Source: Amaricoccus macauensis
Lineage (GTDB): Bacteria; Pseudomonadota; Alphaproteobacteria; Rhodobacterales; Rhodobacteraceae
Assembly (NCBI RefSeq): GCF_014201905.1
Contig: NZ_JACHFM010000005.1
Span: 186,001 to 250,000 of the forward strand
Length of the DNA stretch: 64,000 nt
Direction: 5' to 3'
A program made the position numbers and the translations under genes. Numbering within the stretch: the first letter of the stretch is position 1; each line of letters starts with the position of its first letter. Positions 28,399-33,552 of this stretch are shown here, one piece after another. The notes beneath the pieces are model-generated. The model did no database searches. It was not told the DNA's origin and worked only from the letters and a program-made list of their open reading frames with translations.

Positions 28399-28500
28399 GG
28401 CGCTTGCGCCGGTAGAGGTATGCGGCCGCTTGCGCCGGCAAGGTACGCGGCCGCTTGCGCCGGCAAAGGCTCACCGCTTTCGCGTCGGCACCAAAGCCCT
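28399..28500. repeat. 25-bp tandem repeat array (3 copies plus a degenerate fourth)
   Basis: Units start at 28399, 28424, 28449 and 28474. The core GGCCGCTTGCGCCGGCAA is nearly identical in the second and third copies, one or two bases off in the first and decayed in the fourth. The array fills most of the gap between lpdA and the radical SAM gene and ends 13 bases before the LexA box. Confidence 0.88.
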
Positions 28501-28512
28501 TGCGTCGAATGC

Positions 28513-28527
28513 GAACATATGGCGAAC
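28513..28527. promoter_or_regulatory. LexA (SOS) box upstream of radical SAM-UdgX operon
   Basis: GAACATATGGCGAAC is an exact GAAC-N7-GAAC direct repeat, i.e. GTTC-N7-GTTC on the other strand, the consensus for alphaproteobacterial LexA. It ends eight bases before the start codon of a predicted DNA-repair gene. Only eight bases are fixed, so a chance match is possible; the location is what makes it convincing. Confidence 0.7.
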
Positions 28528-28535
28528 ATGGCGCC

Positions 28536-29747
28536 ATGGACCCTCGACTCGCCGCCAAGCTGCGAATCCTCGCGGACGCCGCCAAGTACGACGCCTCCTG
28601 CGCCTCCTCGGGCGCGCCGAAGCGGTCAGGCGGCGCGAAGGGGCTCGGCTCGACCTCCGGGATGGGCATCTGCCACGCCTACACCCCGGACGGCCGCTGC
28701 GTCTCGCTGCTGAAGATCCTTCTCACCAACTGGTGCCTCTACGACTGCGCGTATTGCGTGAACCGCCGCTCGTCGAACACGCCACGGGCGCGCTTCAGCG
28801 TGGAGGAGGTCGTCACCCTCACCCTCGAGTTCTACAAGCGCAACTACATCGAGGGGCTGTTTCTCTCCTCCGGTGTCGCAAAGTCGCCCGACGCCACCAT
28901 GGAGGATCTGCTGCGTGTCGCGCGCACGCTGCGCCGCGACCATGGGTTTGCCGGCTACATCCACCTGAAAGCGATCCCCGAGGCGAGCCCGTGGCTCGTG
29001 GAGCAGGCCGGGCGCTGGGCCGATCGCCTCTCGATCAACCTGGAGCTTCCCTCCGAGGCGAGCCTCAAGACCCTCGCCCCGGAGAAGAGCGCCCCCGCCA
29101 TCGCCGGCGCCATGGACCAGATGCGCGAGCGCATCGACGAGGCGAAGGCCGAGAAGCTCCGCTTCGCGCCCGCCGGGCAGAGCACCCAGGTGATCGTCGG
29201 CGCCGACGCCACCACGGACGAGGGCGTGCTGCGCGCCAGCGCGCGCCTCTATGGCAGCTACCGATTGCGCCGGGTCTACTACTCCGCCTTCAGCCCGATT
29301 CCCGAGCCGTCGTCGGTCCTGCCGGTGAAGCCGCCACCGCTGCGACGCGAGAACCGGCTCTATCAGGCCGACTGGCTCTTGCGTTTCTACGGGTTCAGCG
29401 TCGACGAGATCGCAGCCGGGGGGGAGGGCGGTATGCTCGACCTCGACGCCGACCCGAAACTCGCATGGGCCCTGAAACATCGCGCCGCATTCCCGGTCGA
29501 CATCAACCGGGCGCCCCGCGAGATGCTGCTCCGTATCCCCGGGCTTGGCGTGAAGGCGGTAAACCGCGCCATCGCGGCCCGGCGGCACACCCGCCTGCGC
29601 CTTGCGGACCTTGCGCGACTGACGCCCTCCCTGAAGCGCGCCCTGCCGTTCATTGTCGCCGCGGACCACCGCGCGCCCGGCCTCGACCGTCTCGACCTTC
29701 GACGGCACCTCGTGAAGCCGCCCGAACAGCTCACGCTCTTCCCGTGA
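28536..29747 (+). CDS. Putative DNA modification/repair radical SAM protein (SplB-like)
   Basis: A 403-residue radical SAM protein. The cluster-binding motif CLYDCAYC (C67, C71, C74) follows KILLTNW, and the N-terminus DAAKYDASCASSG plus GMGICHAYTPDGRCVSLLK match the family annotated as putative DNA modification/repair radical SAM protein. A helix-hairpin-helix DNA-binding motif, LLRIPGLGVKAVNRAIAARR, lies near residues 325-345. It is distantly related to spore photoproduct lyase SplB, but the lesion is unknown. The start is chosen by family N-terminus; a strong Shine-Dalgarno is lacking. Its stop overlaps the GTG of the next gene (GTGA), coupling the two, and a LexA box lies just upstream. 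Confidence 0.88.
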   Translation: MDPRLAAKLRILADAAKYDASCASSGAPKRSGGAKGLGSTSGMGICHAYTPDGRCVSLLKILLTNWCLYDCAYCVNRRSSNTPRARFSVEEVVTLTLEFYKRNYIEGLFLSSGVAKSPDATMEDLLRVARTLRRDHGFAGYIHLKAIPEASPWLVEQAGRWADRLSINLELPSEASLKTLAPEKSAPAIAGAMDQMRERIDEAKAEKLRFAPAGQSTQVIVGADATTDEGVLRASARLYGSYRLRRVYYSAFSPIPEPSSVLPVKPPPLRRENRLYQADWLLRFYGFSVDEIAAGGEGGMLDLDADPKLAWALKHRAAFPVDINRAPREMLLRIPGLGVKAVNRAIAARRHTRLRLADLARLTPSLKRALPFIVAADHRAPGLDRLDLRRHLVKPPEQLTLFP

Positions 29748-31129
29748 TCCACGTGGCGCTGCACGACGGTGCCGACCTCGACGGCTTTCGTGCCGCCGTC
29801 CGCCGGCTCATCGCTGCCGGCGCCCGGCCCGAGGAAGTCGTGTTCGCCAGCGGCAGCCTGTTCGCCGCCGCGCCCGAGACCGACGCGCCCGCGGTCATGC
29901 TGCCGCGCCGCGTCGCTGATCTCGTGCGCCTCGTCACCTGTCACCGCGACCCGGAGCGCTACGCGCTCCTCTACGCCCTGATCTGGCGGATGCACTCCGG
30001 CGAGAAACACCTGCTCGACGTTGCCTCCGACCCGCTCGTGTATCGCCTGCAGCGTCTTGCGAAGTCCGTCCGCCGCGACCTGCACAAGATGCACGCCTTC
30101 GTCCGCTTCCGCCGGATCGAGACGCCGGACGGCGAACGCTTCATCGCGTGGTTCGAGCCGGAAAACTTCATCCTCGAGGCCACCGCCGACTTCTTCATCA
30201 CCCGCTTCCGCTCGATGGACTGGGCGATCCTGACGCCGATCGGCCGGATGCGATGGGATCGGACTCGCCTGAGCTACGGCCCGCCCGCCAGCCGCGACGA
30301 GGCGCCGGTCGCCGACCCCTTCGAGGACGGCTGGCGCGGCTACTACGAGAGCACCTTCAATCCCGCCCGGGTCAACCTCGCCGCCACCCGCGCCGAGATG
30401 CCGAAGAAGTACTGGAAGAACCTGCCCGAGGCGGCGGCGATCCCAGAAATGATCCGAAACGCTCCCGCGCGCGTTAAGGAAATGATCCAGCGGGAAGCGA
30501 CGCGACCCGCGCACCGCAAGCCCGAGAAGGCGCTCGCCGCCATGGCCGACCAGACCCCGAACAGCCTCGATGCCCTCAACCGCATCATCGCCAGCGCACC
30601 GCCCATGGTCGAGGGCGGAACCCGGGCCGTGCTCGGCGAAGGACCGCTCGGTGCGGCCATCGCCTTCGTCGGCGAACAGCCGGGGGATCAGGAGGATCTC
30701 GCGGGGCGTCCCTTCGTTGGCCCGGCCGGACAGGTCTTCGACAAGGCGCTGGAGAAGGCGGGGATCGACCGTGCCGGGGTCTACGTCACCAACGCCGTCA
30801 AGCACTTCAAGTATGTCCAGCGCGGCAAGCGACGGCTTCACCAGCGCCCGACGGCGGGGGAGGTGAAGCACTACCGCTGGTGGCTGAAGGCGGAGCTCGA
30901 CTTCGTCGGACCGCGCGTCATCGTCGCGATGGGCGCGACGGCCGTCCTCGCCCTCACCGGCAAGGCGCTCCCCGTCACCTCGAACCGCGGCGAAACCCGC
31001 TTCGACAACCGCGCGGGCTACATCACCGTCCATCCGTCCCACCTGCTCCGCCTGCCCGACGAGGCGGCGAAGCGGCGGGAGTGGGATGCCTTCGTGGCCG
31101 ACATGCGGCGGATCCGCGAGATCGCCTGA
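29744..31129 (+). CDS. udgX: DUF4130 - UdgX fusion: uracil-DNA glycosylase/cross-linker
   Basis: A 461-residue two-domain protein. Residues ~1-250 are a DUF4130-type domain (RYALLYALIWRMHSGE, RDLHKMHAFVRFR). Residues ~265-461 are a UdgX-type uracil-DNA glycosylase: motif A GEQPGDQEDLAGRPFVGPAG, the R-loop KHFKYVQRGKRRLHQRP with H366 at the position of the histidine that, in studied UdgX proteins, forms a covalent bond to the abasic site, and motif C HPSHLLR (H430). The GTG start overlaps the radical SAM stop. The pair is likely a DNA-repair unit under LexA control. The DUF4130 role is unknown. Confidence 0.88.
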   Translation: MIHVALHDGADLDGFRAAVRRLIAAGARPEEVVFASGSLFAAAPETDAPAVMLPRRVADLVRLVTCHRDPERYALLYALIWRMHSGEKHLLDVASDPLVYRLQRLAKSVRRDLHKMHAFVRFRRIETPDGERFIAWFEPENFILEATADFFITRFRSMDWAILTPIGRMRWDRTRLSYGPPASRDEAPVADPFEDGWRGYYESTFNPARVNLAATRAEMPKKYWKNLPEAAAIPEMIRNAPARVKEMIQREATRPAHRKPEKALAAMADQTPNSLDALNRIIASAPPMVEGGTRAVLGEGPLGAAIAFVGEQPGDQEDLAGRPFVGPAGQVFDKALEKAGIDRAGVYVTNAVKHFKYVQRGKRRLHQRPTAGEVKHYRWWLKAELDFVGPRVIVAMGATAVLALTGKALPVTSNRGETRFDNRAGYITVHPSHLLRLPDEAAKRREWDAFVADMRRIREIA

Positions 31130-33525: not shown

Positions 33526-33552
33526 GAACGCGCTGAGAACGGGCGGGCAAAG

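Follow-up and report, generated by a model that had tools for sequence, protein, structure and literature searches.

What does the gene pair behind a LexA-type operator in Amaricoccus macauensis do for damaged DNA, and is that operator more than a chance match? The locus lies at 28513-31129 of the window, the whole 64,000-nucleotide (nt) stretch analysed here (assembly GCF_014201905.1, contig NZ_JACHFM010000005.1, positions 186,001 to 250,000), and consists of the operator, a radical SAM gene and a gene that fuses DUF4130 to a UdgX-type uracil-DNA glycosylase; all features are given in window coordinates and lie on the plus strand. It is read here, with a probability of roughly 0.8, as a LexA-repressed two-gene SOS operon with a radical SAM/DUF4130 repair core and UdgX as an accessory.

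The operator GAACATATGGCGAAC (28513-28527) is an exact GAAC-N7-GAAC match (GTTC-N7-GTTC on the other strand) that is conserved at alphaproteobacterial orthologues; eight bases (28528-28535) separate it from the ATG at 28536 of the radical SAM gene (28536-29747, 403 amino acids). The protein scores 538 bits against TIGR03916 (rSAM_link_UDG; curated cut-off 343.5), which we take to be COG4277. The second gene (29744-31129, 461 amino acids, identified as an open frame and by profile matches) begins with a GTG at 29744 that overlaps the TGA of the first as GTGA, and its product scores 191 bits against TIGR03915 (cut-off 112.25) and 296 bits against the UdgX model TIGR03914 (cut-off 189.95). The TIGR03915/DUF4130 domain is encoded at 29774-30433 and the UdgX-type domain at 30437-31114, the latter also matching the MsmUdgX-type PDB chain 6iod_A (E 8.1e-42). 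The exact box, the eight-base gap, the radical SAM gene, the GTGA coupling and the UdgX family, all described in an initial annotation made from the letters and open frames, were confirmed by sequence and profiles. An overlap of 1 or 4 nt between the two genes recurs in 68 of 97 alphaproteobacterial loci (pooled), and a scan found no terminator-like sites near the operon. Judged from sequence, this is a DNA-damage-response operon of an already reported kind, with a conserved LexA switch directly before its first gene.

Orthologues were taken from genomes of the class and, as a separate set, from 80 named loci; counts from the two are kept apart unless stated to be pooled, because the same species may occur in both (L051 and L108 have identical proteins). 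The distribution of the operon is patchy, since TIGR03916 passes its cut-off in only 25 of 385 class genomes; within the window's own family, two of the five sampled genomes gave no match. A control search also gave a match in Caulobacter vibrioides, which may or may not exceed the cut-off. Two alignments were used, both including the window; the remaining 55 sequences come from the 70 fused named loci in A2 and from the full set of 80 named loci in A3.

The first protein belongs to TIGR03916 by its score and by the radical SAM motif C67-X3-C71-X2-C74 (28734-28757), which is invariant in the alignments. Outside this motif, the stretch 28599-28700 encodes three extra cysteines (C22, C46 and C55; invariant in 22/22 and 56/56 sequences), for which a second cluster or a catalytic role is possible. 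A C-terminal segment (29490-29594) resembles a helix-hairpin-helix and is putatively DNA binding; the profiles of ComEA (E 0.0096) and RuvA (E 0.08-0.09) match it weakly. A CX3CX2C motif joined to such a DNA-binding-like end would also suit a SplB-like enzyme that directly reverses a UV photoproduct, in which case thymine or uracil lesions of a related sort would fall to DUF4130 and UdgX; we regard this as possible but unlikely, as the protein falls in TIGR03916, no SplB model appeared among its NCBIfam and Pfam hits at E 0.001, and no close solved relative of it was found by sequence. For DUF4130, too, the sequence search found no close solved relative.

The constant partner in the operon is DUF4130. 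It lies downstream of the radical SAM gene and on the same strand in all 104 readable class and named loci (L056 is cut), and its first aligned residue is at most 150 nt from the radical SAM stop in 87 of them. In the annotated loci of Parabacteroides, Acinetobacter and Lachnospira the partner has 253-265 amino acids; it is named TIGR03915 in the first and the last, and "DNA metabolism protein", with a weak DUF4130 match, in Acinetobacter. UdgX is the variable part: it accompanies DUF4130 in 89 of the 106 loci with a readable state, once as a separate frame (L112), and is absent at the locus in 17 (12 alphaproteobacterial, five others) that keep DUF4130, the rest of these genomes not having been searched and the class loci extending only ∼0.5-0.6 kb past the second gene. 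No state was assigned to L041 and L080, whose stretches end within the second gene, to L056, which lies at a contig end, or to L143, L145, L147, L148 and L149, in which the second gene went unmatched by the window DUF4130 query. Likewise, no UdgX was found in the annotation of the Parabacteroides locus, where DUF4130 is kept. In a quick tree built from 110 radical SAM proteins (35 open forks; one very long row, L147; L056 left out), UdgX presence changes nine times by parsimony, and at least five changes are forced for the UdgX-less group by the starred branches. Among alphaproteobacterial loci, an exact box stands at 10 of the 12 that lack UdgX versus 81 of the 83 that carry it. LexA control thus accompanies the radical SAM/DUF4130 pair with or without UdgX, which is optional and looks like an add-on.

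These counts bear directly on the two-step core proposed in the initial annotation, in which UdgX would covalently mark or protect a site and the radical SAM enzyme would then resolve the protein-DNA link or restore the base. Such a coupled scheme is favoured by the overlap of the genes, by their one shared box and by the frequency with which UdgX sits beside DUF4130; the loci that lack UdgX and nevertheless retain both DUF4130 and the box, and the repeated changes in UdgX presence, make it improbable, and UdgX does not look like the core of a mark-and-restore step. The focus shifts instead to the radical SAM/DUF4130 pair as a widely scattered, SOS-controlled and presumed repair activity.

The case for LexA control was made from the place of the box and its conservation. 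By number, the boxes say little: the window holds four exact matches with 1.58 expected, and four or more occurred in 8 of 100 shuffles; genome-wide there are 109, compared with 48 for the reversed pattern and ∼119 predicted when the window shuffle rate is scaled to 4.83 Mb. Box number was thus rejected as evidence, there being no excess over shuffles in window or genome. The initial annotation had estimated about two chance matches and made position the key; position and conservation now carry the case. Two of the other boxes, at 785 and 1864, lie within reading frames that we take to be tatC and tatB by reading, and the remaining one (33526-33540) lies 12 nt upstream of recR. At the operon, the exact box was found within ∼110 nt upstream of the profile match in 24 of 25 class orthologues (loci oriented to the gene strand). 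Among the 80 named loci it was found between -200 and +15 in 69, that is, in 69 of the 72 counted as alphaproteobacterial (69 placed by taxonomy, two Bosea, and L098, titled only Proteobacteria) and in none of the eight others; control windows from the same 80 loci held an exact box in 15 of 3019. Absence of the box upstream of orthologous operons, which had been named beforehand as the result that would speak against LexA control, was looked for in both sets and is not the pattern found.

A second SOS target at recR was considered and rejected: a box was present at none of 30 recR relatives (26 with full flanks), and the match at 33526-33540 is probably due to chance. The recR gene commonly lies behind other genes, so this set is a weak control.

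Further support for a damage regulon comes from the same genome. Its lexA gene (189 bits) has the box GAACGTACCTAGAAC 25 nt upstream of the ATG; an exact box stands 26 nt before an imuA-like gene (ImuA match 27 bits, curated 150), and another (G000:C5:185725-185739) stands 16 nt before an imuB-like polymerase gene with an IMS-family match in Pfam. The last of these boxes ends 261 bp before the start of the window, and its gene runs away from it. Surroundings were read for 42 of the 109 genomic matches, and many of these 42 lie within frames or have no evident gene nearby. Together with the conservation at orthologues, the boxes at lexA and at the imuA- and imuB-like genes uphold the damage-response membership first proposed for the operon. 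Its membership of the alphaproteobacterial LexA regulon is supported by the conserved GTTC-N7-GTTC operator and by the same motif before the organism's own lexA.

The relatives also suggest how the switch is laid out. Across 98 pooled alphaproteobacterial loci the box reads in the GAAC orientation in 85; in nine it occurs solely in the GTTC orientation, and four have no exact box. The spacer consensus over the 85 loci, A-T-A-T-(C/A)-(A/G)-T, places a TATAAT-like hexamer within the operator, and a weak TTG (42, 34 and 42 of 85) occurs 18-16 nt upstream of the box, at a spacing of 17 nt from the hexamer. The first in-frame start codon follows within 10 nt of the box in 57 of the 85 loci (median 5), and a Shine-Dalgarno-like string lies between box and start in 18. 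In the window, the putative -10 element is TATGGC (28518-28523; family consensus TAT(C/A)(A/G)T), a weak form assigned from the 85-locus profile. A sigma-70 promoter in the window itself was rejected, as the promoter scan gave none. The promoter and leaderless reading leans on the relatives, because the window's own -10 and -35 are poor and the scan finds none; from them we infer that LexA occupies the -10 element and that the mRNA begins with the start codon or just a few bases ahead of it, and so would be near-leaderless. An operator on the -10 element combined with a near-leaderless mRNA would make a simple switch that is directly testable.

Several observations weigh against a LexA-repressed operon with a radical SAM/DUF4130 core. 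The window's TATGGC lacks a good -35 at any spacing from 15 to 19 nt; the exact box is missing in three of the 72 named alphaproteobacterial loci and in one of the 25 class loci; and in 17 of 104 loci the distance from the radical SAM stop to DUF4130 exceeds 150 nt, reaching up to 1279 nt. Of the 16 loci outside Alphaproteobacteria, 10 have no assignable motif within 200 nt, and three, from Xanthomonadales, share a different palindrome, GTCTCA-N5-TGAGAC. That the window box is itself a chance match and the operon free of LexA control in this organism would fit the chance-level abundance of exact boxes, the GGC at the end of the window spacer and promoter elements less typical than those of relatives, but is very improbable given a box kept at the same place in nearly all sampled alphaproteobacterial orthologues and at none of the 30 recR relatives.

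The LexA-repressed operon would then work as follows. Uncleaved LexA would cover the -10 element and block RNA polymerase; upon damage, RecA filaments formed on DNA would cause LexA to cleave itself, the near-leaderless mRNA would be made, and both proteins would be produced together. The radical SAM enzyme, held to DNA by its hairpin-helix end, would act with DUF4130 on a damaged base, repairing or modifying it by radical chemistry. As an accessory, UdgX would remove uracil from DNA and stay attached to the sugar, which would protect abasic sites against breakage while the crisis lasts.

The UdgX domain itself departs from the known form. UdgX contains a 4Fe-4S cluster (PMC10359453), and the window domain carries the family motifs: GEQPG, an HPS motif B and a KRR-x-H R-loop, KRRLH (30827-30841), whose H366 is the counterpart in the alignments of MsmUdgX H109 (role of H109 in PMC10359453). 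Invariant in the 56 aligned sequences are GEQPG, H366, H430 (the histidine of motif B) and the core of both motifs, A and B; the K and first R of the R-loop vary. Three further cysteines, two in a CxxC and a third that aligns with a cysteine of MsmUdgX, occur together in 40 of the 56 sequences, and the other 16, among them the window, have none of them. In the window, Tyr377 (30872-30874) replaces the conserved cysteine and the upstream CxxC is also missing. Over all 89 UdgX-bearing loci, 67 have the three cysteines and 22, the window included, have none; there are no intermediates, and the cysteine-less form occurs at 4 of 16 class loci and 18 of 71 named loci. From this pattern and the family literature (PMC10359453), we infer that the three cysteines bind the cluster. 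With none of these conserved cysteines, the window protein is not expected to hold a [4Fe-4S] cluster; by its sequence it is a cluster-less variant that passes the family cut-off and keeps the cross-linking histidine, and its residues predict that it would function as other UdgX proteins do. On the tree, the cysteine state changes three times by parsimony, with at least two changes forced by starred branches, and the window sits among 17 cluster-less rows (support 99). The earlier UdgX-type assignment stands as to family and motifs; the absence of the cluster cysteines had gone unseen. In the cluster-less UdgX of L106 (Maritimibacter) and L136 (Oceanicola), unlike that of the window, the VKHFK histidine is replaced by Q and R, respectively, a hint that this histidine might serve as the cluster's fourth ligand.

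Taken together, these features may describe a clade that, in the lineages sampled, lost the iron-sulphur cluster as a unit and kept the cross-linking residues. The product would be a cluster-free cross-linker tethered to the radical SAM/DUF4130 pair and expressed from a near-leaderless mRNA whose -10 element lies in the LexA operator; we give this combined picture even odds. If active, cluster-free forms would reveal which functions depend on the cluster and which do not, and they might be useful as uracil-mapping cross-linkers that require no iron-sulphur assembly.

Outside Alphaproteobacteria, three further loci of the 16 carry a candidate LexA box, CTGTATAAATATACAG in Caballeronia, TGTTCAATAGAACA in Chthoniobacteraceae and GAACACATGTTC in Lachnospira, each of which we take to be the respective clade's own. 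L076 and L099 also hold matches to GGA-N5-TCC, but this motif belongs to another phylum and the matches were put down to chance. At the locus of a Rhodospirillales metagenome-assembled genome (L088), which has no usual box, GAAC-N4-GTTC (GAACAAACGTTC) stands in its place and is presumably a box of the Gram-positive type. The Bacteroidetes motifs given in the available part of PMC8565304 were not found at the Parabacteroides or Phocaeicola loci.

The Xanthomonadales palindrome was surveyed in the Xanthomonas family (L163-L168 and L199-L268). GTCTCA-N5-TGAGAC was found in 41 of 60 genomes, at one to seven sites each, and the reversed pattern in none of the 60. Of the 79 sites found, 77 were read: 22 lie at one type of DEAD-box helicase (weak match to the Hrq1 winged helix), 13 at the radical SAM operon and one at a uvrA-like gene (named from reading), and 41 matched none of the three queries. 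Among these 41, Pfam matches, each for a single example, identify genes for recA, an Lhr-type helicase, RmuC and DUF763; dnaB- and mraZ-like genes were recognised from reading alone. One genome with seven sites has two of them (L237:1500 and 3058) near a gene for a Cas3-like HD protein, again named from reading. It looks as if the palindrome marks a damage regulon in this family. The regulator may be other than LexA: the exact palindrome was present in none of 18 lexA-like promoters from 10 genomes of the family. Among these 18, eight have TTAGTAG...CTACTAA-like sites, four hold the exact TGTACAAATGTACA, three hold near forms and three neither.

As to mobile elements, 158 plasmid records gave a match (60 listed, eight fetched), and tblastn returned 10 phage records, eight labelled only Bacteriophage sp.; a phage origin was rejected, as the phage matches are all below 60% identity (one record examined further). 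A 25-bp tandem repeat of 2.6 copies (28401-28466) lies between the operon and an upstream gene that reads as dihydrolipoyl dehydrogenase-like.

Parts of this system are already in print. DUF4130, predicted to be a mutagenesis-related enzyme, has been linked with radical SAM and uracil-DNA glycosylase proteins (PMC3765255). A radical SAM protein, not further named, belongs to Gram-positive and Balneolaeota SOS regulons (PMC7739468), and CAC3343-CAC3344 of Clostridium acetobutylicum is putatively under LexA (PMC3828012). In Caulobacter, iron limitation induces the SOS regulon; the available part of that paper (PMC6120978) does not name the radical SAM operon. An Acinetobacter gene with the same annotation is upregulated on desiccation (PMC13130816). 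For the terms searched, PMC12907096 makes no mention of the operon in the text available, and a term search of the available text of PMC10776899, a UdgX paper, gave no matches. A cluster-free UdgX was not found among the literature search results or by term searches of the available text of two UdgX papers. Newness is claimed neither for the promoter layout nor for the gain and loss of UdgX, neither having been searched for in print.

The closest reported system is the putative two-gene, uracil-DNA glycosylase-based repair operon COG1573-COG4277 placed within inferred Bacteroidetes SOS networks (PMC8565304). According to the same source, its SOS control had earlier been reported in Verrucomicrobia and Alphaproteobacteria, citing Erill 2016 for the former and da Rocha 2008, on Caulobacter, for the latter. 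LexA control of the operon is therefore not new. As the COG names are understood, this is the gene pair of the window, under LexA or LexA-like control and with Alphaproteobacteria included; it differs in that the available text of PMC8565304 frames the pair as uracil-DNA glycosylase base excision and does not mention DUF4130, cluster loss or the -10 overlap. In CAC3343-CAC3344 the partner is called of unknown function in the part of PMC3828012 available and may be a DUF4130-only form. At the level of family scores, the window proteins do not differ from the NCBIfam trio TIGR03916/TIGR03915/TIGR03914, exceeding all three curated cut-offs. With MsmUdgX (PMC10359453; UdgX-type PDB chains such as 6iod and 6ajo) the window UdgX shares GEQPG as motif A, the KRR-x-H R-loop and the HPS motif B; unlike MsmUdgX, it does without the conserved cysteines, is fused to DUF4130 and is encoded in a radical SAM operon.

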